Origin: a virus
Virus record (IMG/VR): IMGVR_UViG_3300044732_000823
Span: 1-48,494 of that record
Direction: 5' to 3' (one strand)
Length of the DNA stretch: 48,494 nt
The translations under genes were made by a program, and so were the position numbers. Every line of letters begins with the position of its first letter. Position 1 is the first letter of the stretch. The notes beneath the pieces were generated by a model, which saw only the letters and a list, made by a program, of their open reading frames with translations, had not been told where the DNA came from and made no database searches. Of the stretch, positions 22,768-48,494 are shown one piece after another.

Positions 22768-23202
22768 TTAAACTCCATTTAACTTTTGAACTTCTGGTCT
22801 CATTAAAATTGTTTCATACTCAACAATATGTCCACGATGATCTGCTATTGGGGTGCTTCCACGAGGCTCAAATATGGTTGAACCATTAACTCCAGTTGAA
22901 GGACTTTCTTTCCAAATAACAAGACCGTCAGAGTTTTTAATATTTGCTACTTTTACTGTAGAGTCTAAAGTTACTCCAGCCCTTACTTTTACTAAACTAT
23001 TTGTTACTTTTAAAAACTCATCAATATTTACTGTGGTTGAGTTATCTCCAAGACCAGCCCTAACAATTCCTCTTGCAAGACACGGAATAGTTTGATTAAA
23101 AACCCAAGTTCTTGTAATAGATCCAGTAGTTGAGCTTTGTGAAATAGATGCTACATAAATGTCTGCGGTCATTGTATATGCTGATTTAGCGACACATGTC
23201 AT
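22768..23202 (-). CDS. Head-tail stopper/closure-like protein (144 aa)
   Basis: Small beta-rich protein: TADIYVASISQSS; TRTWVFNQTIPCLARGIV; ending IVEYETILMRPEVQKLNGV. Such barrel proteins with a disordered loop form the head-completion ring below the adaptor. It lies directly between the adaptor-like gene (stop at 23203) and the gp10-like gene. Assigned from size, fold pattern and order; no unique motif. Confidence 0.55.
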   Translation of the reverse strand: MTCVAKSAYTMTADIYVASISQSSTTGSITRTWVFNQTIPCLARGIVRAGLGDNSTTVNIDEFLKVTNSLVKVRAGVTLDSTVKVANIKNSDGLVIWKESPSTGVNGSTIFEPRGSTPIADHRGHIVEYETILMRPEVQKLNGV

Positions 23203-38892: not shown

Positions 38893-38922
38893 TTGACACA
38901 AGATAAAAAGAGTTGCTATAAT
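38893..38922 (+). promoter_or_regulatory. Consensus promoter TTGACA-N18-TATAAT
   Basis: Both hexamers are perfect and the spacer is 18 bp. It drives the two small rightward genes that begin at 38949 (26 bp downstream, with an AAAGGA site). The match predicts strong transcription soon after DNA entry. Confidence 0.85.
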
Positions 38923-40055: not shown

Positions 40056-40084
40056 ATTATAGCAAAATATAAAAAGATTGTCAA
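40056..40084 (-). promoter_or_regulatory. Consensus promoter TTGACA-N17-TATAAT of the Hsp20 gene
   Basis: Minus strand: TTGACA (40084-40079), 17 bp, TATAAT (40061-40056). Perfect in both hexamers and in spacing, 55 bp before the ATG. No HAIR or CIRCE-type heat-shock element is evident near it. Confidence 0.88.
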
Positions 40085-40934: not shown

Positions 40935-40956
40935 AATCTAGCAGGGAGGTCTGACA
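40935..40956 (-). promoter_or_regulatory. Early promoter, minus-strand copy (TGTCAGAC-N8-TAGATT)
   Basis: Minus strand: TGTCAGAC (40956-40949), CTCCCTGC (8 bp), TAGATT (40940-40935), preceded by TG-C extended -10. It is 34 bp from the ATG at 40901. Same architecture as the rightward copies; shows that the motif follows the gene direction. Confidence 0.78.
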
Positions 40957-40962
40957 CTTTTA

Positions 40963-40986
40963 GAGTGTGGGCTATTGCCCACACTC
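40963..40986 (-). terminator. Hairpin overlapping the end of the Cys-rich gene
   Basis: Perfect 10-bp stem GAGTGTGGGC / GCCCACACTC with loop TATT; it includes the TAG stop of the 76-aa gene on the minus strand. The T-run is poor. It isolates that gene from the promoter just downstream. Confidence 0.65.
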
Positions 40987-41202
40987 ATCGCAATCTAGGC
41001 ACATACCTACATAACGTGGCACGAAATAAATCGTGTCCTGCATAAGGTTTGCGAAATTATCGCAGGTAGCACACTCAACCAATTCGGTTGCACTAGTGCA
41101 TTCAACGCATACCTGATGAGTAGCGTGTTCAAAACCCTTAACCAATACGGTCTGGGTAGGTGCGTCTAGTTCGCACCATTCGCAAATAGTTGCTGTTATC
41201 AT
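40972..41202 (-). CDS. Cysteine-rich zinc-binding protein (76 aa)
   Basis: Starts at ATG 41202 with GAGG 9 bp upstream. It has CEWC (7-10), CVEC (about 32-35), CATC (about 44-47) and CLDCDEC at the end, i.e. at least three CxxC pairs, which suggests two zinc-binding sites. No family recognised. An in-frame start further upstream exists but would run through the promoter-like area. It ends in a hairpin. Possible role: zinc-ribbon regulator of early phage expression; inferred only. Confidence 0.62.
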   Translation of the reverse strand: MITATICEWCELDAPTQTVLVKGFEHATHQVCVECTSATELVECATCDNFANLMQDTIYFVPRYVGMCLDCDECGQ

Positions 41203-41242
41203 TTCGATAACCTCACTTTCTTTAGGATAACCTTTATCCAAT

Positions 41243-41270
41243 AATCTAAGTAGACCACACACCCCTGACA
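41243..41270 (-). promoter_or_regulatory. Degenerate early-type promoter
   Basis: Minus strand TTGTCAGGG (41271-41263) and TAGATT (41248-41243), with 14 instead of 8 bp between the 8-bp core and the -10. The gene start is 41 bp downstream. It may be a diverged copy; weaker support than the others. Confidence 0.3.
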
Positions 41271-41315
41271 ATTTCAAGCCCAAACACCCTATTTCAGGTG
41301 AACATTTGGTGAACA

Positions 41316-41497
41316 ATAATCCACAACTTATACACAGCCTGTGGATAAAGTTATACACAAGTTATTAACACCTGTGGATAACCTGTGGAAAACGCCGACC
41401 ATTTTTTCTGGGCATTGTCAATTACGACACACCTACGAAATCAGTGGAAAATACACAGCGATTCAACGAAATACGTCTGTGGATAACCTGTGTATAA
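41316..41497. other. Cluster of DnaA-box-like 9-mers; candidate replication origin
   Basis: TTATCCACA-type words: TAATCCACA 41317-41325, TTATACACA 41328-41336, TGTGGATAA 41340-41348, TTATACACA 41351-41359, TGTGGATAA 41373-41381, TGTGGATAA 41478-41486 and TGTGTATAA 41489-41497. The 398-bp region 41203-41600 has no gene and separates the leftward and rightward small-gene operons, the usual place for an origin. Smaller pairs of boxes follow at 42615-42667 and 43123-43153. Confidence 0.5.
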
Positions 41498-41544
41498 AGA
41501 GTTTACCTAATGTTCATCTAACACATACCCCAAATGGGGCAAAA

Positions 41545-41567
41545 TTGTCAGACCCCTAGTGTATAGT
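41545..41567 (+). promoter_or_regulatory. Early promoter 1 (TTGTCAGAC-N8-TATAGT)
   Basis: TTGTCAGAC, CCCTAGTG, TATAGT; then an AAAGAGG site and ATG 34 bp after the -10. It is the first of the rightward series and matches best the TTGTC start of the RecA-NDp consensus. Confidence 0.8.
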
Positions 41568-41600
41568 GAAACTATAAGAACAAAAAGAAAGAGGTCACAA

Positions 41601-41786
41601 ATGACTTACTTAGTAACAAATAAGAGAGACGGTATCTCTAACGAATACATCTCTATTCATTCCGCCTTGCAAATGGTTGCAAGTTGCTATGACGGGGCAG
41701 GTATCACTTGCGAAATCGTAGACACCCAAACGGGTGAACAGGTAGAAATCTACCGCAATCCTCTAACAGGTTGGAAGGTGGCTTAA
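41601..41786 (+). CDS. Small hypothetical protein (61 aa)
   Basis: First gene of the rightward small-gene series. A compact alpha/beta protein (MTYLVTNKRDGISNEYISIH; SALQMVASCYDGAGITCEIV; ending NPLTGWKVA). No family recognised. ATG follows GAAAGAGG with an 8-bp gap. Overlap-free spacing with the next gene (TAA then ATG at once). Likely an early protein. Confidence 0.68.
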   Translation: MTYLVTNKRDGISNEYISIHSALQMVASCYDGAGITCEIVDTQTGEQVEIYRNPLTGWKVA

Positions 41787-41936
41787 ATGGCTTACACTAA
41801 AATAAAAAATGCACGACTTTTAGTTGATGCAGTAAATGATTTAGCACTAACGCTAAAGCACGACCCAGACAATCAGAGAATGATTGACCACTACAATCGC
41901 CAGATTGAAATGCTAACTAGGCGTGTCTACAGGTAA
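41787..41936 (+). CDS. Small basic helical protein (49 aa)
   Basis: Starts directly after the previous stop (TAAATGG). MAYTKIKNARLLVDAVNDLA, then a helix with NQRMIDHYNRQIEMLTRRVY. Two amphipathic helices and a basic end suggest a helical hairpin, perhaps a small dimer. No function can be assigned. Translationally coupled to 41601-41786. Confidence 0.6.
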   Translation: MAYTKIKNARLLVDAVNDLALTLKHDPDNQRMIDHYNRQIEMLTRRVYR

Positions 41937-41939
41937 AAC

Positions 41940-41961
41940 TGTCAGACCTCTAGTGTAAGAT
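41940..41961 (+). promoter_or_regulatory. Early promoter 2 (TGTCAGAC-N8-TAAGAT)
   Basis: TGTCAGAC, CTCTAGTG, TAAGAT; the gene start is 30 bp after the -10 with AAAGAAAGGG between. It begins only 4 bp past the previous stop, so no long cassette precedes it. Confidence 0.78.
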
Positions 41962-41990
41962 AAAACTAACAAACAAAGAAAGGGCATCTA

Positions 41991-42158
41991 ATGTCACTAA
42001 TCCAAATGGCTCTAATCATCTTAATACCTAGCATAGTTGCTGGGGCTCTTGCTTACTTAGTCGTAAGCGTTACACAACTAAAGGCTAATAAAAAAATGTG
42101 GGAACAAGCCTACACAAAATTAGCAATCGAACTTGAACTATCAAAGGCAGGTAAATAA
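41991..42158 (+). CDS. Small single-pass membrane protein (55 aa)
   Basis: N-terminal transmembrane segment (about 5-28, MALIILIPSIVAGALAYLVV) followed by a basic/helical tail (QLKANKKMWEQAYTKLAIEL). The type N-out/C-in small membrane protein is frequent among early phage genes acting on the host envelope. No specific family seen. The next gene starts at once (TAAATGA). Confidence 0.6.
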   Translation: MSLIQMALIILIPSIVAGALAYLVVSVTQLKANKKMWEQAYTKLAIELELSKAGK

Positions 42159-42323
42159 ATGACACGCAAAGACTACATTCAAGTTGCAAGCATTTTGAAT
42201 TCATACCACTTAGACATTGACTCGCAAGTGTTTGAGGATTTGCTTTCAGACTTTCAAATCTTTTTCAAAAAAGATAATTCTAATTTTGATTCAACACGAT
42301 TCAGAGATGCGGTGATGAAATAA
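42159..42323 (+). CDS. Small hypothetical protein (54 aa)
   Basis: MTRKDYIQVASILNSYHLDI, then a segment ending in FDSTRFRDAVMK. The pattern (RKDY..VA..L......F..L...F..F....N..FD...F...) is the small helical protein often found in actinophages and mycobacteriophages among early genes; role unknown. It ends in a TAATG overlap with the next gene. Confidence 0.65.
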   Translation: MTRKDYIQVASILNSYHLDIDSQVFEDLLSDFQIFFKKDNSNFDSTRFRDAVMK

Positions 42324-42475
42324 TGAAATTCGTTCACAATAAAATTGACGGAACTTTCGTAATTGGAATTAGTTTTTCAAATTACTACAGTAAAAAACTA
42401 AACAGAAAAAACACATCTTTAATTTTTGATTTAGGTTCGCATTCGTTTGCGTTTGTGTTGCGTGGTGAATACTGA
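42323..42475 (+). CDS. Small hypothetical protein (50 aa)
   Basis: Overlaps the previous gene by TAATG and the following one by TGATG. Predicted beta strands (TFVIGISFSNYYSK; SLIFDLGSHSFAFVLRGEY) with a basic loop. No known domain. Coupled translation on both sides supports that it is real. Function unknown. Confidence 0.5.
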   Translation: MKFVHNKIDGTFVIGISFSNYYSKKLNRKNTSLIFDLGSHSFAFVLRGEY

Positions 42476-42543
42476 TGAGAAATTTTTTGATCGTCTGCTT
42501 AACGCTACTGACTCTCTATGTGATAATGAAATTCACTGATTGA
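42475..42543 (+). CDS. Very small membrane peptide (22 aa)
   Basis: ATG in a TGATG overlap with the preceding stop. A hydrophobic helix (NFLIVCLTLLTLYVIMKF) between Arg at residue 2 and TD at the end. Followed 16 bp later by a terminator. Coding status rests on translation coupling and the sharp membrane-helix composition. Confidence 0.4.
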   Translation: MRNFLIVCLTLLTLYVIMKFTD

Positions 42544-42559
42544 AAATTAAACTAAAATT

Positions 42560-42594
42560 TCTGGGCGTGTCGTTTGACATTCCCAGATTTTTTT
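42560..42594 (+). terminator. Intrinsic terminator after the 41.9-42.5 kb operon
   Basis: TCTGGG (42560-42565) pairs with CCCAGA (42582-42587), and inside it TGTC pairs with GACA around GTTT; seven Ts follow. Together a two-part hairpin with a U-tract. It also starts a cassette: GCCGAC follows at 42595. Confidence 0.78.
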
Positions 42595-42713
42595 GCCGAC
42601 CCGTTTTCCACAAGTTATCCACAGCTCTTTACGATCCTGTGGAAAATCACTGGAATTCTGTGGATTATTGTTTACCTACTGTTCATCTTAGACACGCCTT
42701 GAGATACCAAAAA

Positions 42714-42735
42714 TGTCAGACCTCTAGTGTATGCT
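42714..42735 (+). promoter_or_regulatory. Early promoter 3 (TGTCAGAC-N8-TATGCT)
   Basis: TGTCAGAC, CTCTAGTG, TATGCT; the N8 is the same as in promoter 2. The start codon is 31 bp after the -10 with AAAGGGG between. DnaA-box-like words lie 50-100 bp upstream. Confidence 0.78.
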
Positions 42736-42765
42736 GAAAGCATAGTCAAAAGAAAGGGGTACACA

Positions 42766-42951
42766 ATGTACTCACTAAGAATCGAAGACCTATTGGTAGG
42801 TCAGCGTTACTACTCCAGTCGTGGATTCGCTGGAGAAATCATCACTGCTGAAAAGCGTGAAGACATGATGAGCGATAACGCTTATCTAATCTATGTCCGT
42901 CAAGACGGATTTCCTTACTACTGGTATTCAACTGTTGAGGTGACTAACTAA
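42766..42951 (+). CDS. Small hypothetical protein (61 aa)
   Basis: A small beta-barrel-like pattern (YSLRIEDLLVGQRYYSS; FAGEIITAEKREDM; NAYLIYVRQDGFPYYWYSTV). The content of aromatics and the YxS/GxI alternation would fit an SH3- or Tudor-like fold, but no family is recognised. First gene of its own operon; overlaps the next gene by TAATG. Confidence 0.62.
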   Translation: MYSLRIEDLLVGQRYYSSRGFAGEIITAEKREDMMSDNAYLIYVRQDGFPYYWYSTVEVTN

Positions 42952-43106
42952 TGAGTGAATTTATTTGTTGTTTCTGCGAATCCGAAATGGATAATGAGCA
43001 GATTATTTGCTGTGATACCTACAAAGGTAAAATGACCGTTTCAGAATTTGAACAGGTCTATGGCTATGAGTTTGAAGACCTGACCTATGAGTATCAGGAC
43101 TGTTAA
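42951..43106 (+). CDS. Small acidic Cys-rich protein (51 aa)
   Basis: CCFC near residue 6-9 and ICC near 19-21 make a compact zinc-type site; the second half is strongly acidic (SEFEQVYGYEFEDLTYEYQD). Start overlaps the previous stop. Acidic small proteins with a zinc knuckle can act as protein-binding inhibitors, but no evidence is available here. A DnaA-box pair follows directly (43123-43153). Confidence 0.58.
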   Translation: MSEFICCFCESEMDNEQIICCDTYKGKMTVSEFEQVYGYEFEDLTYEYQDC

Positions 43107-43231
43107 CAAATTGTTATAAAGTTTATCCACAGGACTTCCCCACCTGTGGATAACTTGCAACACGCCGACACTTTTAAGGCTATTTGTCAAGTTACGACAC
43201 TATTAAAATAATCGTGGGGATTCACTGAAAA

Positions 43232-43253
43232 TGTCACACCTATGTGCTAGTAT
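43232..43253 (+). promoter_or_regulatory. Early promoter 4 (TGTCACAC-N8-TAGTAT)
   Basis: TGTCACAC variant, CTATGTGC, TAGTAT with TGC extended -10. The start codon is 31 bp after. Preceded by a full cassette (GCCGAC 43164, TTACGAC 43192, TTCACTGAAAA just before the motif). Confidence 0.78.
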
Positions 43254-43283
43254 CGGAGATACCTACTAAGAAAGCAGATAGAC

Positions 43284-43817
43284 ATGAATGCAACTGACTT
43301 ATACCGTAACATTGCTAAGACCGCAACACCCGCACAAATTGAACAAGCAACCCAATGGTATGCAGATGCAGAACTACTTGCACACGATCTAATTAGAATT
43401 TACCAATCACGAAACATAAGCGTGACAGTAGAAAATACCGCAAGCATAATTTCTGCATTCTCACCTCGTCAACGTTGGTCACGCAACATGGCACAAGCAA
43501 TAGAATTTGCTCATGGTGGAAAACCTGCAGGACTAAAAAACAATTTGCTAATGGCAGAAAATTCTTTAACAATGGGATTCGATGCACTTAAAGGTCAAAA
43601 GACAAATGCATTCGCAAAAGCAATTGCAGGTGATGAAAGTGCAATAACAATTGATGTATGGATGTGTTATGCAGCAGGATTAGAAACCAATGCACCTAAC
43701 AAAACACAATACCGAGAATTGTCTAAGGCTGTTGAAATAATTGCAAGCGAAATGAAAATGACACCTAGAGTTATGCAAGCCCTGATCTGGATTGTGTTTA
43801 GGGGCAGTGCAGCTTGA
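43284..43817 (+). CDS. Conserved phage protein, DUF7178-like (177 aa)
   Basis: Recognisable pattern from phages: IISAFSPRQRWSRNMAQAIE, then GLKNNLLMAENSL ... GQKTNAFAKAIAGDESAITI followed by DVWM. In such proteins this part resembles a helix-hairpin-helix base excision glycosylase fold (final D in TIDVWM is at the place of a catalytic Asp in HhH-GPD enzymes), but catalytic activity is not shown. It is the largest gene of its operon and is followed by a hairpin. Possibly a DNA-binding or modified-base recognition protein. Confidence 0.7.
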   Translation: MNATDLYRNIAKTATPAQIEQATQWYADAELLAHDLIRIYQSRNISVTVENTASIISAFSPRQRWSRNMAQAIEFAHGGKPAGLKNNLLMAENSLTMGFDALKGQKTNAFAKAIAGDESAITIDVWMCYAAGLETNAPNKTQYRELSKAVEIIASEMKMTPRVMQALIWIVFRGSAA

Positions 43818-43821
43818 CAAA

Positions 43822-43837
43822 GCCAGGGAAACCTGGT
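43822..43837 (+). terminator. Small hairpin within the cassette after 43817
   Basis: GCCAGG-GAAA-CCTGGT, a 5-6 bp stem with a stable GNRA-like loop, then GTCGGC and TTTT. The same place in the last cassette (47850-47875) has a related sequence (TTGACAAAG, GGGAAA, GTCGGCAC). Probably a weak terminator. Confidence 0.5.
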
Positions 43838-43913
43838 CGGCACGTTTTCCCAATAAAGTCAAGTTACGACATTATTAAAAAAACCACGAGAATTTCACTG
43901 AAAACCTAGAAAT

Positions 43914-43935
43914 TGTCAGACCATTGTGATAAGGT
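43914..43935 (+). promoter_or_regulatory. Early promoter 5 (TTGTCAGAC-N8-TAAGGT)
   Basis: TTGTCAGAC (43913-43921), CATTGTGA, TAAGGT with TGA extended -10. ATG is 30 bp after. Here TCACTGAAAA lies one helical turn further upstream than in other cassettes. Confidence 0.76.
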
Positions 43936-43964
43936 ATAACCATACCTACGAAGAAAGGAACACT

Positions 43965-44201
43965 ATGTTCACTTTACACAACCCAATGAAAGTGATGAAC
44001 GAACGCTATGTCGTTACCTCACACCCTTGCCCAACTTGCAATGAAACTAAAACAGTTTCAATTTCTTCTGCTGAACTATTTGCATACCACCAAGGTGGCT
44101 TAGCCCAAACTGTATTGTCTGCCTATGATGCAGATGTGCGTGAGCGTTTTATTACAGGTATCTGTGGTACTTGTTGGGATGAAATGTTTGGGGGGGAATA
44201 A
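43965..44201 (+). CDS. Zinc-ribbon protein (78 aa)
   Basis: CPTC (about 20-23) and CGTC (about 68-71) are the pairs of a zinc ribbon separated by a helical segment (ISSAELFAYHQGGLAQTVLS). Similar proteins are widespread in actinophages (PCPxC...xxxv.....e.....G...Q...). Start ATG at 43965 has GAAAGGA; a longer in-frame reading would run through the promoter. It may interact with host ribosomes or RNA polymerase; not known. The stop overlaps the next ATG. Confidence 0.7.
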   Translation: MFTLHNPMKVMNERYVVTSHPCPTCNETKTVSISSAELFAYHQGGLAQTVLSAYDADVRERFITGICGTCWDEMFGGE

Positions 44202-44365
44202 TGTCAGACCTCTATGGTAATGTAGGTACTATGATGAAATTACCTGCAAGCCCCGAACAACTTAGGGCAAGACTAGAATTGCGTAGGAGTAATGCATCCG
44301 CTAAGCACCGCAACAAAAAGAAATACACCCGTAAGTCAAAATACAAAAACCTACTAGGAGAATAA
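44201..44365 (+). CDS. Small basic protein (54 aa), promoter inside its 5' end
   Basis: The ATG overlaps the previous stop (TAATG). The first codons ATG TCA GAC CTC are themselves the promoter core. The encoded protein is basic (RARLELRRSNASAKHRNKKK; TRKSKYKNLLGE) and fits a nucleic-acid-binding peptide. A second start pair ATGATG at 44231 lies 7 bp after the -10 of the internal promoter, giving a 44-aa leaderless form. Both forms are possible. Confidence 0.6.
   Translation: MSDLYGNVGTMMKLPASPEQLRARLELRRSNASAKHRNKKKYTRKSKYKNLLGE
44202..44223 (+). promoter_or_regulatory. Early promoter 6, inside coding sequence (TGTCAGAC-N8-TAATGT)
   Basis: TGTCAGAC, CTCTATGG, TAATGT, with the ATG of the 54-aa gene directly before it. 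N8 spacing is kept exactly. Downstream, ATGATG follows after 7 bp, suggesting a leaderless start. Confidence 0.55.
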
Positions 44366-44366
44366 A

Positions 44367-44651
44367 ATGGGATTAAACTTTGCAACAGAGTTATCCGCTA
44401 TGGATACTATGCCAATTGAGCAACAAATTAATTTGCACTTGCAATACAATTTCTATCCACCCGTGCCATCGTCAATGGTACAGGCTTGCATAGATGCAAT
44501 TAACGCAATTTGTAATGAAGATTACTTTGCTGAAATTGAATTACCACAAGGCGTTGAGTATCGTGGTAGTAACTTTGCACCTGCACAAGCAATTGCAGAC
44601 AATCACCGCTTAGATGCTTGGCTAATGGAATTAGATTGGGATGATGAATAA
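44367..44651 (+). CDS. Small acidic hypothetical protein (94 aa)
   Basis: Unknown. Helical and acidic, with MPIEQQINLHLQYNFYPPVP, then a helix (MVQACIDAINAICNEDYFAE) and an acidic end (RLDAWLMELDWDDE). ATG follows a stop by 1 bp with CTAGGAG as the ribosome site. Pattern (EQQI..HLQ.N.YPPVP..M...C..AI......) is seen in other actinophages as an early-region protein. Its stop lies 1 bp before the next start. Confidence 0.68.
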   Translation: MGLNFATELSAMDTMPIEQQINLHLQYNFYPPVPSSMVQACIDAINAICNEDYFAEIELPQGVEYRGSNFAPAQAIADNHRLDAWLMELDWDDE

Positions 44652-44652
44652 A

Positions 44653-44991
44653 ATGGGTGCAAGAATTAATTTCGTATTTGATGACGGAACAGATAGTCTA
44701 GTTAATCTTTATTCACATTGGGGTGAAAATACTTGGCAAGATGATTTAGCAGGTGCGTTATTCCACGCACAGATAAGACAGGGTGACCATTCATACTTTA
44801 CCCGTATGGTTATTTCACACTTAATTAAAGATGACCTAATGAGAGAAACTGGATTTGGAATCTTTGCAATTAACCGTTCAGAAATTAATAACAATTTTGA
44901 TAAGACAGTTGTATTAGATTTAGTAAACAACACAGTCACAGATTGTGACACTCAAGAAGTAATCCCATTCTATGGAAAGGTAACAGCGTAA
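44653..44991 (+). CDS. Hypothetical protein (112 aa)
   Basis: Starts at ATG 44653, just after the previous TAA (an in-frame ATG at 44641 would overlap). It reads MGARINFVFDDGTDSLVNLY, SHWGENTWQDDLAGALFHAQ, and a GFGIFAINRS segment; this is a pattern of a small conserved phage protein with a beta-rich core (GxRINFxFxDG ... LYSHWG), known from actinobacterial phages as hypothetical. The stop overlaps the following ATG. Confidence 0.68.
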   Translation: MGARINFVFDDGTDSLVNLYSHWGENTWQDDLAGALFHAQIRQGDHSYFTRMVISHLIKDDLMRETGFGIFAINRSEINNNFDKTVVLDLVNNTVTDCDTQEVIPFYGKVTA

Positions 44992-45140
44992 TGGCTAAAA
45001 TGAAAACAGTTGAGATAGTACTAATGGAAAACCACCCAGACGGTATCTATACAGAAGCAGACGTGTGGGAAGCAATTGCAGAAGCACACGGATTAGATTA
45101 TTCAGAGATTGCAGATGGAGATTTAGCAGAATGGCTATAA
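44991..45140 (+). CDS. Small acidic hypothetical protein (49 aa)
   Basis: Overlaps the stop of the preceding gene (TAATGG) and the start of the following one by 10 bp. Basic start MAKMKTVEIV, then a strongly acidic helix (IYTEADVWEAIAEAHGLDYS). No family known. Compact operon position suggests a co-expressed small protein. Confidence 0.55.
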   Translation: MAKMKTVEIVLMENHPDGIYTEADVWEAIAEAHGLDYSEIADGDLAEWL

Positions 45141-45259
45141 AACTATTTAATCGTAAGCAAGAAGTGTCAGACCCGTATGTTACACTAGACAAAATGATGT
45201 CAGAAATGGCATCAACCGAAACGTACATTGAGTACCTACGAGAAAGAGAAAAGGTATAG
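45131..45259 (+). CDS. Small hypothetical protein (42 aa) with internal promoter
   Basis: ATG at 45131 overlaps the previous gene by 10 bp. It reads MAIKLFNRKQEVSDPYVTLD and a helix with a basic end (YIEYLREREKV). The segment VSDPYVT is coded by an early-type promoter, and ATGATG at 45194 lies 7 bp after its -10, which could give a 22-aa leaderless product. Function unknown. Confidence 0.5.
   Translation: MAIKLFNRKQEVSDPYVTLDKMMSEMASTETYIEYLREREKV
45165..45186 (+). promoter_or_regulatory. Early promoter-like site inside a gene (TGTCAGAC-N8-TACACT)
   Basis: TGTCAGAC, CCGTATGT, TACACT within the 42-aa gene, followed by AGACAAA and ATGATG. Same layout as promoter 6. It would serve the genes from 45260 on. 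Chance match cannot be excluded. Confidence 0.45.
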
Positions 45260-45415
45260 TTGGAATTATTTATTGGTATACTGGCTATGTTATTTGCTTT
45301 GGGCTTTGTAATTGGATTGATTTCTAAGATTTCTTGGCTTGAAGATAAAATAGATAGTGATACAAATGGAGCATCAGAACTTGACAAATACAAAACCTAT
45401 GATTGGGAATTATGA
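45260..45415 (+). CDS. Small single-pass membrane protein (51 aa)
   Basis: TTG start right after the previous TAG. It has a transmembrane segment (about 2-22, ELFIGILAMLFALGFVIGLI), then an acidic soluble tail (WLEDKIDSDTNGASELDKYK). Ends with TGA overlapping the next ATG (ATGA). Type and position are like those of other small membrane proteins in this region; no family. Confidence 0.5.
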   Translation: MELFIGILAMLFALGFVIGLISKISWLEDKIDSDTNGASELDKYKTYDWEL

Positions 45416-45627
45416 TTACTGAATATAAAGAGATTGACACCTTAGTTGGAATGACAATTGAGCCTGGGGATATCGTCAAGCTTCCAGACAATAGCATTGT
45501 TTGCATTACTCGCACAGAGCCAACCATAACTGGGTATGACTTATTCTTCTTAGATTTATTTGAAGATGAAGAGTTGTGCTATTCATTATCCGATGATGAA
45601 TGTGTGTCTTTGCTTCAGTTTGACTGA
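45412..45627 (+). CDS. Small beta-rich acidic protein (71 aa)
   Basis: Starts in an ATGA overlap. Reads MITEYKEIDTLVGMTIEPGD, IVKLPDNSIVCITRTEPT, then an acidic end (FLDLFEDEELCYSLSDDECV). The GDIVKLPDNSIV...I...... pattern resembles a small SH3/KOW-type barrel. Not assigned to a family. Last gene of its operon; a cassette with GCCGAC follows. Confidence 0.6.
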   Translation: MITEYKEIDTLVGMTIEPGDIVKLPDNSIVCITRTEPTITGYDLFFLDLFEDEELCYSLSDDECVSLLQFD

Positions 45628-45718
45628 GGCAAGACCGCCGACACAAATCTAGATCCATGTCAAGTTTTACGAGCGTGATTATGGTCACACGAAAAATATC
45701 ACCCAAAGTCTAATAAAA

Positions 45719-45740
45719 TGTCAGACCCCTGTGCTATGAT
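45719..45740 (+). promoter_or_regulatory. Early promoter 7 (TGTCAGAC-N8-TATGAT)
   Basis: TGTCAGAC, CCCTGTGC, TATGAT with TGC extended -10. The start codon is 34 bp after. An ATG directly before TCAGAC makes an in-frame extension of the next gene, which is judged not used. Confidence 0.8.
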
Positions 45741-45774
45741 GATAGCATCAACAACAAATAGAAAAGAGAAGCAA

Positions 45775-45930
45775 ATGGAGAAAATCCAAACACCAACTGT
45801 TGGCTCACAGTTCACAACTGCTAAGTCAGGCGTAACAGGAACAGTTCAGGAAGTAATCAAAAATACTACTGGCTCACTCCGTATTCGTCTTGATGTAAAT
45901 GGTCAAGACCGTTGGACTACTGTAAAGTAG
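45775..45930 (+). CDS. Small hypothetical protein (51 aa)
   Basis: ATG at 45775 after AAAGAGAAG. A compact beta protein (TVGSQFTTAKSGVTGTVQEV; SLRIRLDVNGQDRWTTVK) of a type frequent in actinophages; the pattern resembles a small SH3-like barrel. No specific function. Monocistronic: own promoter upstream and a strong hairpin downstream. Confidence 0.66.
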   Translation: MEKIQTPTVGSQFTTAKSGVTGTVQEVIKNTTGSLRIRLDVNGQDRWTTVK

Positions 45931-45942
45931 TTAAATAAGTTT

Positions 45943-45975
45943 AGGTGGGGTGTTTCTTACCCTTGCACCCCACCT
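45943..45975 (+). terminator. Strong hairpin after 45930
   Basis: AGGTGGGGTG / CACCCCACCT, a perfect 10-bp GC-rich stem with a 13-base loop, followed by TAAAAC. Without a long U-tract, but isolates the gene from promoter 8, which starts just behind. Confidence 0.7.
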
Positions 45976-45981
45976 TAAAAC

Positions 45982-46003
45982 TGTCACACCTACCTGCTAA
46001 GAT
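45982..46003 (+). promoter_or_regulatory. Early promoter 8 (TGTCACAC-N8-TAAGAT)
   Basis: TGTCACAC, CTACCTGC, TAAGAT with TGC extended -10; start codon 30 bp after with AAGGAG. Lacks the GTCGGC/TTACGAC cassette, which is replaced by the terminator stem. Confidence 0.78.
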
Positions 46004-46032
46004 AAACTTACCTACAAAACAAGGAGACCCAA

Positions 46033-46518
46033 ATGGGACTAGACATGTATCTTCGTGCTAACGAGTATGTATCACGCAACGACTGGACTCGTAATGACAA
46101 TGGTGAATTAGTTGATAGCCCTAACTCATTGTTTACACAAATTGTTAAAACTCTTGAGTTAGAAAACATTATTGACAATACTGGCTTTGCTGGAATGACC
46201 ATTGACCTTCCTATGGGTTACTGGCGTAAGGCTAATCAAATCCATAACTGGTTTGTTGAAAACTTAGCAGACGGTGTTGATGAATGTCAGGTTATTACTG
46301 TACGCAGAGAAGATTTAGAAACTCTAAAAGATTTGTGCGTTGAAGTTCTTGCAAACAAATCACTTGCAGAAGATTTATTACCAACTGGTGCAGGTTTCTT
46401 CTTTGGTTCAACCACTTATGATGAATACTACTATGGTGACTTGAATGACACTATTGGTATTATTAATAAGTGTCTTGAAAGCAAGTTTGATTACTTTGAG
46501 TACCAAGCATCTTGGTAG
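46033..46518 (+). CDS. Conserved phage protein, MGLDMYL type (161 aa)
   Basis: Widespread phage protein of unknown function with typical features: N-terminal MGLDMYLRANEYVS, GYWRKANQIHNWFVEN, then EDLETLKDLCVEVL and the C-terminal LLPTGAGFFFGSTTYDEYYYGDL followed by a helix. The start has AAGGAG. The three conserved blocks form one domain spanning the full length. Alone in its operon; the tRNA follows. Confidence 0.82.
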   Translation: MGLDMYLRANEYVSRNDWTRNDNGELVDSPNSLFTQIVKTLELENIIDNTGFAGMTIDLPMGYWRKANQIHNWFVENLADGVDECQVITVRREDLETLKDLCVEVLANKSLAEDLLPTGAGFFFGSTTYDEYYYGDLNDTIGIINKCLESKFDYFEYQASW

Positions 46519-46532
46519 TAGGTTACATCCGA

Positions 46533-46562
46533 AACCAAAACCTGCTACAGCCACGCAGGTAA
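46533..46562 (+). terminator. Weak hairpin after 46518
   Basis: CCTGC ... GCAGG (about 46541-46560) with a 9-base loop and TAAAATAAG after it. Possible end of the preceding transcript. Beyond it the 95-bp gap to the tRNA holds another short repeat (CTGAG/CTCAG) and nothing else recognised. Confidence 0.35.
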
Positions 46563-46613
46563 AATAAGGGGGACAGTCCTGAGCACCATACTCAGACTAT
46601 AAACTGCTCATAT

Positions 46614-46687
46614 GGTCTGTTAGCTCAATTGGTTAGAGCACTACCCTGTCACGGTAGAGGTTGTGGGTTCAAGTCCCATACAGATCG
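46614..46687 (+). tRNA. tRNA-Asp (anticodon GTC)
   Basis: Full cloverleaf: acceptor GGTCTGT / ACAGATC with discriminator G, D-arm GCTC-AATTGGTTA-GAGC, anticodon stem CTACC/GGTAG with loop CTGTCAC (anticodon GTC), T-arm GTGGG-TTCAAGT-CCCAT. CCA is not encoded (GCAAAA follows). It sits between a gene and a cassette of promoter 9. The only tRNA found; it may help phage translation or come from a host/prophage event. Confidence 0.93.
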
Positions 46688-46778
46688 CAAAAGTGGGTCG
46701 GCAGCTTTATAACAGGAATATAACAATTACGAAATGCTTACGAATTCACAGGAAATAACACGAGATAAGTTTGGTAAA

Positions 46779-46800
46779 TGTCAGACCCCTATGCTATGAT
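46779..46800 (+). promoter_or_regulatory. Early promoter 9 (TGTCAGAC-N8-TATGAT)
   Basis: TGTCAGAC, CCCTATGC, TATGAT with TGC extended -10; the start GTG is 33 bp after. The preceding cassette has GTCGGC 46697, a TTACGAA variant 46727 and TTCACAGGAAA. Confidence 0.8.
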
Positions 46801-46832
46801 AAATCTATCAAACACTAACAAAGGAAATAAAC

Positions 46833-47828
46833 GTGTCTATTGACCAAATTGAAATCGTAGATGGCAAGGCTTCTTACGCTTCCTTGCGTGTACCTGCCTA
46901 CCACCAACTTGGAACTGTATTCCAAAATGAAGTAACCACATCAGAGATGCTAGAACTAGCAAACCTTGATAACTGGGATGTACGTCTTGAAGATGTTGCA
47001 CTACCTGAAAACTACACATCAGTAAAGTCTAACTTTCTTGTTGTTCGTAATCATCCAGCAGACAAGCATCCAGATGTTTTGTCTGTTGTAGGTGAGCGTT
47101 ACAAGGTATTACAGAATGAAGAACTGTTTGCATTTGGTGACAACTTACTTGACGGTGGACGTTGGGAAGTTGCTGGTTCTCTAAAGCAAGGTAGACTTGT
47201 CTTTGGTGCATTAGCACTTGAGCGTGAAACCGTACTTGACCCAACAGGTGTTGCAGATGTAGTTAAGAATTACCTTGCTATCTCTACAAGCCACGATGGT
47301 TCTAGTGCTGTTCAAGCAACTGTTACTCCAATCCGTATGACCTGTATGAATACACACACCGCAGTATTCCGTAAGGGTGCTAAGCAGTCTTTCAAGTTGC
47401 GTCACACACAGTCATTAGACGGACGTGTTGCACAGGCTCGTCAAGCACTTGGTCTTGCTAACACTTACATTGACGAGTTTGAAGTTATGGCTAAGGCTAT
47501 GATTGAAAAGGAAATCACTAAGTCTAAGTTTGCTGAAATTGTTGCAACCGCTTACCCAATGCCAGACAAAGACACTAGAGGTGCTATGACTAAGTGGGAA
47601 AACAAGATTGAATTGCTAGATGAAATCTATGGTGGTGACACTAACGGAATGATTGCTGGTAATGCTTGGGGTGCTTACAATGCACTAACAGAACGCTTAG
47701 ACTGGTATCGCTCTGCCCGTAGTGAAAACAAGGAAAGCATCCTAATGGGTGCTAGTGGCTTTGACCCTGTTGTAAATGCAGAAAAGAATAAGTTGCTATC
47801 CATTGTGCGTGAGTTGGCTGGGGTCTAA
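46833..47828 (+). CDS. DUF932 / phage-plasmid-like protein (331 aa)
   Basis: DUF932 (TIGR03299) family: GTVFQNEVTTSEMLELANLD, NFLVVRNHPADKHPDVLSVV then GERYKVLQNEELF, GGRWEVAGSLKQGRLVFGAL, a central SHDGSSAVQATVTPIRMTCM and helices, then a C-terminal region ending in EKNKLLSIVRELAGV. Found in many phages and plasmids; its biochemical role is not firmly known. GTG start with AAAGGAA upstream. Operon of one gene with its own promoter; the cassette of promoter 10 follows. Confidence 0.88.
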   Translation: MSIDQIEIVDGKASYASLRVPAYHQLGTVFQNEVTTSEMLELANLDNWDVRLEDVALPENYTSVKSNFLVVRNHPADKHPDVLSVVGERYKVLQNEELFAFGDNLLDGGRWEVAGSLKQGRLVFGALALERETVLDPTGVADVVKNYLAISTSHDGSSAVQATVTPIRMTCMNTHTAVFRKGAKQSFKLRHTQSLDGRVAQARQALGLANTYIDEFEVMAKAMIEKEITKSKFAEIVATAYPMPDKDTRGAMTKWENKIELLDEIYGGDTNGMIAGNAWGAYNALTERLDWYRSARSENKESILMGASGFDPVVNAEKNKLLSIVRELAGV

Positions 47829-47943
47829 CCCCAGCACAACCCAGTTTCCTGACTTGACAAAGTTGGGAAATTGGGTCGGCACATTTAAGATCCAAAGCTC
47901 TTCTTACGACATTTAAGAAATACTCACGGGAATCACCAGAAAA
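47829..47943. other. Intergenic cassette of promoter 10
   Basis: No gene. Contains a hairpin-type CCCAGTTTCC ... GGGAAATTGGG, GTCGGC (47875-47880), TTACGAC (47904-47910) and ATCACCAGAAAA before the promoter. It shares TTGACAAAG, GGGAAA and GTCGGCAC with the cassette at 43815-43845. Confidence 0.55.
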
Positions 47944-47965
47944 TGTCAGACCTATGTGGTATGAT
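47944..47965 (+). promoter_or_regulatory. Early promoter 10 (TGTCAGAC-N8-TATGAT)
   Basis: TGTCAGAC, CTATGTGG, TATGAT with TGG extended -10. The ATG is 30 bp after with GAAAGAAG. Confidence 0.8.
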
Positions 47966-47995: not shown

Positions 47996-48494
47996 ATGCC
48001 AAACTGGGTATTCAATTCACTTGTTGTATCAGGTGAGCAATCAGAATTAGATAAGATGGTTGCACAACTTAACCAGCCATTCGTAAAACATTTCCCTGAA
48101 CATAAATTTGAGAACAATGAAATTGTTTGGGTTGCTGACGAACAGCACTATGACAATCCTATTTTTGCTTTTTGGAACATTGTAAAACCAACAGACCTAG
48201 AAGCATACTATGCAACAGATACTTTCAAAGGTAACAAGAACATCAAGGTAAATGAAGATGGCAAAATGGATGGCGAATCTTTTATGCAAGAGTTTGTTCG
48301 CTCTATGAAAGAAGACCAAGACTGGTATCATTGGAACTGCCGTAACTGGGGAACTAAGTGGGATGTAGCAGTAGATAATAATAATGACTATCCTAACACT
48401 ATTAAAACAGTTAATGATGATGGTTCTATTTTATACCAATTTGAAACCGCTTGGAGTCCTGTTGGAGAGGTTCTAATGAAACTATCAGAACAAT
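47996..48494 (+). CDS. YubB/DUF1281-like protein, cut by window edge (166+ aa)
   Basis: Open from ATG 47996 to the edge. Recognised by PNWVFNSLVVSGEQSELDKM at the start, FAFWNIVKP in the middle, and WYHWNCRNWGTKWDVAVD with FETAWSPVGEV later; this is the ferredoxin-like api92/YubB (DUF1281-type) pattern from phages and plasmids. Function unknown. The N-terminal half and most of the C-terminal domain are present; the end lies outside. Confidence 0.82.
   Translation, partial: MPNWVFNSLVVSGEQSELDKMVAQLNQPFVKHFPEHKFENNEIVWVADEQHYDNPIFAFWNIVKPTDLEAYYATDTFKGNKNIKVNEDGKMDGESFMQEFVRSMKEDQDWYHWNCRNWGTKWDVAVDNNNDYPNTIKTVNDDGSILYQFETAWSPVGEVLMKLSEQ

Follow-up and report, generated by a model that had tools for sequence, protein, structure and literature searches.

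The RecA-NDp promoter of mycobacteria, TTGTCRGTG-N8-TANNNT, is PafBC-dependent and serves the LexA-independent response to DNA damage. Repeats of another kind are known from mycobacteriophage L5, whose stoperators are repressor sites, short and asymmetric, oriented with transcription and without a fixed -10. Here we describe an array of promoters in the IMG/VR virus record IMGVR_UViG_3300044732_000823 (positions 1 to 48,494; "the window" denotes this whole stretch, a 48.5-kb fragment with 37% GC), in which a box resembling that of RecA-NDp promoters recurs upstream of small phage genes. PafBC binds between promoter and sigma region 4 and in this way redirects sigma-A RNA polymerase (RNAP); it needs single-stranded DNA (ssDNA), and PafB contacts the -26 motif (PMC11804915). 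SiwR, a WYL activator of Mycobacterium smegmatis, also works at a -26 promoter (PMC10693628).

Like the RecA-NDp/PafBC regulon of mycobacteria and other actinobacteria, the array has a TGTC core, a purine followed mostly by G, and an exact distance to TANNNT; unlike it, the array is dense, serves phage genes of unassigned function and carries TGTCAGACC in place of TGTCRGTGG. The SiwR promoter is similar in having a WYL-type activator at -26 (for the array PafBC, as proposed here), whereas it has a GGA triplet at -26 and belongs to a single chromosomal operon (PMC10693628). Judging from sequence, we consider it probable that the array consists of promoters for sigma-A RNAP carrying host PafBC at the -26 box.

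Twelve sites of fixed anatomy

The first-pass annotation had listed twelve copies of one promoter, and all twelve were found exactly where it had placed them, each on the strand of its downstream gene and each with the 9-mer separated from TANNNT by exactly 8 bp. In the window the pattern TGTCASAC-N8-TANNNT matches 13 times, where dinucleotide shuffles predict 0.09, which rules out a chance origin. The thirteenth match (19926-19905, minus strand) coincides with the codons (V-S-D) that follow a GTG start in the tape-measure gene; it looks like a coding coincidence and was set aside. The array sites, with leader lengths and downstream open reading frames (ORFs), are as follows.

40935..40956, minus strand: promoter TGTCAGAC-CTCCCTGC-TAGATT, 33-nt leader, 39-aa ORF 40901-40782 (CxxC protein)
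41546..41567, plus strand: promoter TGTCAGAC-CCCTAGTG-TATAGT, 33-nt leader, ORF 41601-41786
41940..41961, plus strand: promoter TGTCAGAC-CTCTAGTG-TAAGAT, 29-nt leader, ORF 41991-42158
42714..42735, plus strand: promoter TGTCAGAC-CTCTAGTG-TATGCT, 30-nt leader, ORF 42766-42951
43232..43253, plus strand: promoter TGTCACAC-CTATGTGC-TAGTAT, 30-nt leader, DUF7178 gene 43284-43817
43914..43935, plus strand: promoter TGTCAGAC-CATTGTGA-TAAGGT, 29-nt leader, ORF 43965-44201
44202..44223, plus strand: probable leaderless promoter TGTCAGAC-CTCTATGG-TAATGT, ATG 7 nt downstream, at 44231
45165..45186, plus strand: doubtful site TGTCAGAC-CCGTATGT-TACACT, inside a 42-aa ORF, ATG 7 nt downstream
45719..45740, plus strand: promoter TGTCAGAC-CCCTGTGC-TATGAT, 34-nt leader, ORF 45775-45930
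45982..46003, plus strand: promoter TGTCACAC-CTACCTGC-TAAGAT, 29-nt leader, ORF 46033-46518
46779..46800, plus strand: promoter TGTCAGAC-CCCTATGC-TATGAT, 32-nt leader, DUF932 gene 46833-47828
47944..47965, plus strand: promoter TGTCAGAC-CTATGTGG-TATGAT, 30-nt leader, Api92-like ORF beginning at 47996 and truncated at the contig end

TGN precedes the -10 in nine of the twelve, whereas in the first three sites the TG lies one base closer. Start codons about 30-34 bp downstream had been claimed for the array; ten sites fit, with leaders of 29-34 nt that each contain a ribosome site of the AAAGG/AAGGA type, but at 44202 and 45165 only 7 nt separate the site from an ATG. Site 44202 is probably leaderless; a similarly placed site in another viral contig (L127) sits 6 nt before its ATG. 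The reported difference from RecA-NDp at positions 8-9 of the box is present; the sequence runs on as GACC and not just GAC.

The motif in related phages

The leftward block of the window encodes portal, head protease, capsid, tape measure and ribonucleotide reductase (RNR), and the rightward block (41-48.5 kb) holds small genes of unassigned function, the DUF7178 and DUF932 genes and a tRNA-Asp. Identity to the Jay2Jay group of Streptomyces phages (Stanwilliamsviridae) is about 63% for the RNR and about 50% for the DUF932 protein; these phages share the divergent layout and have the same gene order beside portal, protease and capsid. The window is a 48.5-kb piece of a Stanwilliamsviridae-like actinophage; complete genomes of that family measure about 125-135 kb. 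Against cultured phages, Megablast with the window gave no match, nor did tblastn with the 94-aa ORF 44367-44651. Stanwilliamsviridae such as Jay2Jay share with the window the RNR, DUF932 and a divergent small-gene block adjoining the structural genes, but they lack the -26-box array; 13 cultured actinophage records, Stanwilliamsviridae included, showed no enrichment of the motif. In one cultured phage, Microbacterium phage Antuna (ON260825), two canonical-looking TGTCGGTG-N8-TANNNT sites were seen at 23073 and 28549, with none in the reversed control.

A pattern scan returned many viral contigs with clusters of sites. To avoid the bias of a pattern seed, 80 relative loci were fetched by the DUF932 protein, blind to the motif. 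In these, TGTC[AG]G-Nx-TANNNT occurred 622 times at x=10, against 5-30 times at most other x and about 50-130 times at a few, and 71 of the 80 loci had at least three sites. Among 666 sites the preferred endings were AGACC (200), AGTGG (88) and GGTGG (18), TGTCAGACC being the commonest box form. The search itself set TGTC at -28 to -25; apart from this, the profile of the relatives showed A/T at -31 to -29, A or G at -24 and G at -23, followed by ACC, TGG, TCC or CCC, then by the TG of an extended -10 (TGN at most sites) and TANAAT. Positions are numbered on the assumption that the -10 spans -12/-7, and the box therefore falls where PafB reportedly contacts the -26 motif (PMC11804915). The distance to the closest downstream ATG had two peaks, one at 6 nt and the other at about 29-35 nt, which puts the transcription start where TANNNT predicts it.

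Where reversed controls gave 1-2 sites, four of six near-complete relatives (G039, G003, G027 and G014) had 14, 11, 14 and 15, almost all in a single divergent module of about 8-10 kb; the other two (G013 and G035) had weaker clusters of four and five sites. G039 also has genes for a RecA/UvsX-like recombinase of its own, a RuvC-like resolvase and a Cas4-like nuclease (L378, 18889-19917), in a leftward operon outside the -26 promoter module.

Arrays were also seen in phages of other composition (L097 46%, L096 41%, L116 52% and L122 50% GC). L096 and L097 have no ORF in common with the DUF932-anchored clade, suggesting several lineages in which arrays either originated or spread.

Exchange of the box at orthologous promoters

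At the promoter of the DUF932 gene, the box in 102 orthologous loci ended in AGACC 23 times, AGCCC 13 times, AGTCC 11 times, GGTGG 9 times and AGTGG 5 times. The share of ACC is biased upward, because some loci were fetched by an TGTCAGACC seed; the coexistence of forms is free of this bias. Elsewhere in the block, TGTCAGACC lay upstream of ORF 41601-41786 in 7 of 7 orthologues looked at and of ORF 46033-46518 in 15 of 28. The exact RecA-NDp form, TGTCRGTGG, and TGTCAGACC thus alternate at the same orthologous promoter, and from this exchange a single factor probably reads both.

In 7 of the 102 DUF932 loci the box is replaced by a sigma-A -35 (for example TTGACA-N17-TAAGAT in L137). The window itself keeps ordinary sigma-A promoters outside the array:

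38893..38922, plus strand: TTGACA-N18-TATAAT
40056..40084, minus strand: TTGACA-N17-TATAAT, facing the leftward block

The box therefore behaves like an exchangeable stand-in for the -35. The same observations bear on whether the sites are plain extended -10 promoters of sigma-A that need no activator, with TGTCAG as an accessory contact of sigma or RNAP. The TGN at nine window sites and at most sites of the relatives would fit, yet the rigid spacing of box and -10, the exchange of the whole box for TTGACA and the ordinary TTGACA-N17/18-TATAAT promoters retained elsewhere make this account improbable.

Still less probable, to the point of being hardly credible, is that TGTCAGAC, near-palindromic as GTC-A-GAC, is the operator of a phage repressor, like the asymmetric stoperators of L5. 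The array does resemble these in consisting of many short asymmetric intergenic copies oriented with transcription. Stoperators, however, have no fixed -10, whereas the distance of the array boxes to the -10 is constant; the palindrome is broken in the TGG and TGTCACAC forms; the stoperator consensus GGTGGMTGTCAAG has no match in the window; and no repressor or integrase was seen in the annotated parts.

PafBC in the candidate host order

When genomes were scanned with DUF932, a match came from a 1.3-Mb actinobacterial metagenome-assembled genome (MAG) whose order has small genomes. We infer Nanopelagicales as this order; as host of the array phages it is a candidate only. In 61 genomes of the order, TTGTCRGTG-N8-TANNNT stood clearly above the reversed control. 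The motif and a LexA box (TTGTCAGTGGCNCCTGCTACCTT-TCGAACAgaTGTTCG) precede recA in nine genomes, the recA promoter reading TTGTCAGTGG-N7-TANNNT, and the motif lies directly upstream of radA, recR and a dnaE-type gene (the names come from translated gene starts, not from a family search). The first-pass annotation had looked to host damage-response genes for enrichment of the motif, and in the candidate order the genes just named have the RecA-NDp motif. The array resembles the recA promoter of the order in its extended -10 and a box centred at about -26. At many other host sites an ATG follows after 6-8 nt, as in leaderless mRNA, whereas leaders in the array are mostly 29-35 nt.

WYL genes were present in 31 of 31 candidate-order genomes tested, nearly always as two genes about 950 bp apart. 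In G071, the single genome in which pafB-pafC was verified, the order is trmI-pafB-pafC-tatC; its PafB gave a match of 6e-39 to the PafB chain in the solved PafBC-RNAP complex, with a near-identical RMFERDK segment, and its PafC one of 3e-26 to PafC. Most genomes of the order also have a third protein with a WYL domain, about 735 aa long (for example G040:C124:5895).

PafBC or a phage-coded factor

Support for PafBC comes from the anatomy and spacing of the sites, the exchange of forms, the motif at host repair genes and pafBC in the candidate order. Other results weigh against it. TGTC is present at 12 of 12 window sites, but RGTG, which would complete TTGTCRGTG, is present at none (AGAC or ACAC instead), and the leading T of TTGTC at just two; in relatives this position is A in 46% and T in 44%, and RGTG is found in many of them, orthologous promoters included. 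The RecA-NDp (PafBC) architecture first claimed for the array is well supported by the core, the spacing and the exact form at orthologous promoters of relatives, whereas the missing RGTG and the mostly missing leading T make the window array a phage version of this kind of promoter and not a strict member. On candidate-order chromosomes the ACC form is all but absent, with 4 matches in 201 genomes, against 2 in controls. The DUF932 contig of the actinobacterial MAG has no array and, as it is the sole tie of the order to these phages, the link between order and array phages is weak. DUF932 was found in 2 of 296 candidate-order genomes, neither with an array, and in just two named contigs of genomes, one in a MAG of another phylum and probably mis-binned. 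Cultured relatives that infect genera known for PafBC use also lack the array. Finally, another partner of sigma-A, WhiB, is encoded in 15 of 25 phage records and in 6 of 6 near-complete array phages examined.

WhiB is a mark of actinophages. It, or a 60-aa helix-turn-helix (HTH) protein also present in all six near-complete array phages, could act as a phage-coded factor that binds the -26 box with sigma-A, copying the geometry of PafBC, and the dominant ACC form, being phage-specific, would suit such a factor. We regard this as unlikely. Cultured relatives have WhiB but no array; canonical host-type boxes stand at the same promoters; and the arrays of L096 and L097, with no ORFs in common with the clade, point to a shared host factor. 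A phage-coded WYL protein or sigma factor as the reader was rejected: 40 array phage records lacked any WYL domain and 25 lacked sigma-70 region 2, the majority of the records being incomplete.

A contig binned with a Methylophilaceae MAG (L138) carries an actinophage-like array and a DUF932 gene; it probably comes from a phage and was mis-binned.

DnaA boxes upstream of the promoters

Three groups of DnaA boxes precede array promoters in the window:

41317..41497: cluster ahead of the 41546 promoter, with three exact TTATCCACA and further boxes that differ at one position, many spaced by about 11 bp
42604..42667: cluster upstream of the 42714 promoter
43123..43153: two exact inverted boxes upstream of the 43232 promoter

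The 80 relative loci contained 348 exact DnaA boxes against 13 expected (about 26-fold; permuted 9-mers 2-33), and most of those near -26 promoters preceded the -26 box by 55-120 bp, none lying downstream. The boxes may serve as an origin, as regulatory sites or as a sink for DnaA. A tentative idea, which we hold to be rather doubtful, is that the gene block, across a large group of environmental actinophages, is wired to two host proteins of genome integrity together, PafBC at the -26 box and DnaA at the upstream boxes, so as to sense replication state and DNA damage or to draw DnaA off the host origin.

An intergenic repeat, (G)TCAAGTTACGACA or its TTACGACA part, was also noted at 41422, 43185, 43857 and 47904, after sequence of the GCCGAC/GTCGGC type and ahead of several promoters. 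Relatives show enrichment of similar motifs ahead of their promoters; among upstream 8-mers, general intergenic bias dominates.

Proposed mechanism and implications

The virus appears to be a freshwater-type phage of actinobacteria with hundreds of relatives, in which nearly every gene of a block presumed early, by its position only, starts from this promoter. In the mechanism that we propose, the -26 box (TGTCAGACC, or TGTCRGTGG in relatives) would replace the -35 hexamer upstream of the extended -10 TGN-TANNNT, and the HTH of host PafB would read it within the PafBC-RNAP complex, ACC being a lineage-specific phage variant of the host form TGG. The extended -10 may give basal transcription of the block. 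ssDNA from replication or from breakdown of the host genome would then activate host PafBC and raise the small genes together. Because PafBC is activated by ssDNA (PMC11804915), entry of bare double-stranded DNA is no obvious trigger, and ssDNA from replication or host breakdown fits better.

Our literature search found no report of phages using PafBC. The results suggest that these phages borrow the DNA-damage activator PafBC of their host. If so, phages of abundant aquatic actinobacteria would parasitise the LexA-independent damage response through sigma adaptation, a route of phage control new to the literature searched. Hundreds of natural promoter variants would become available to PafBC biology, from which the tolerance of the -26 box (TGG versus ACC) could be defined, and whether infection triggers a damage response of the mycobacterial type would become testable.

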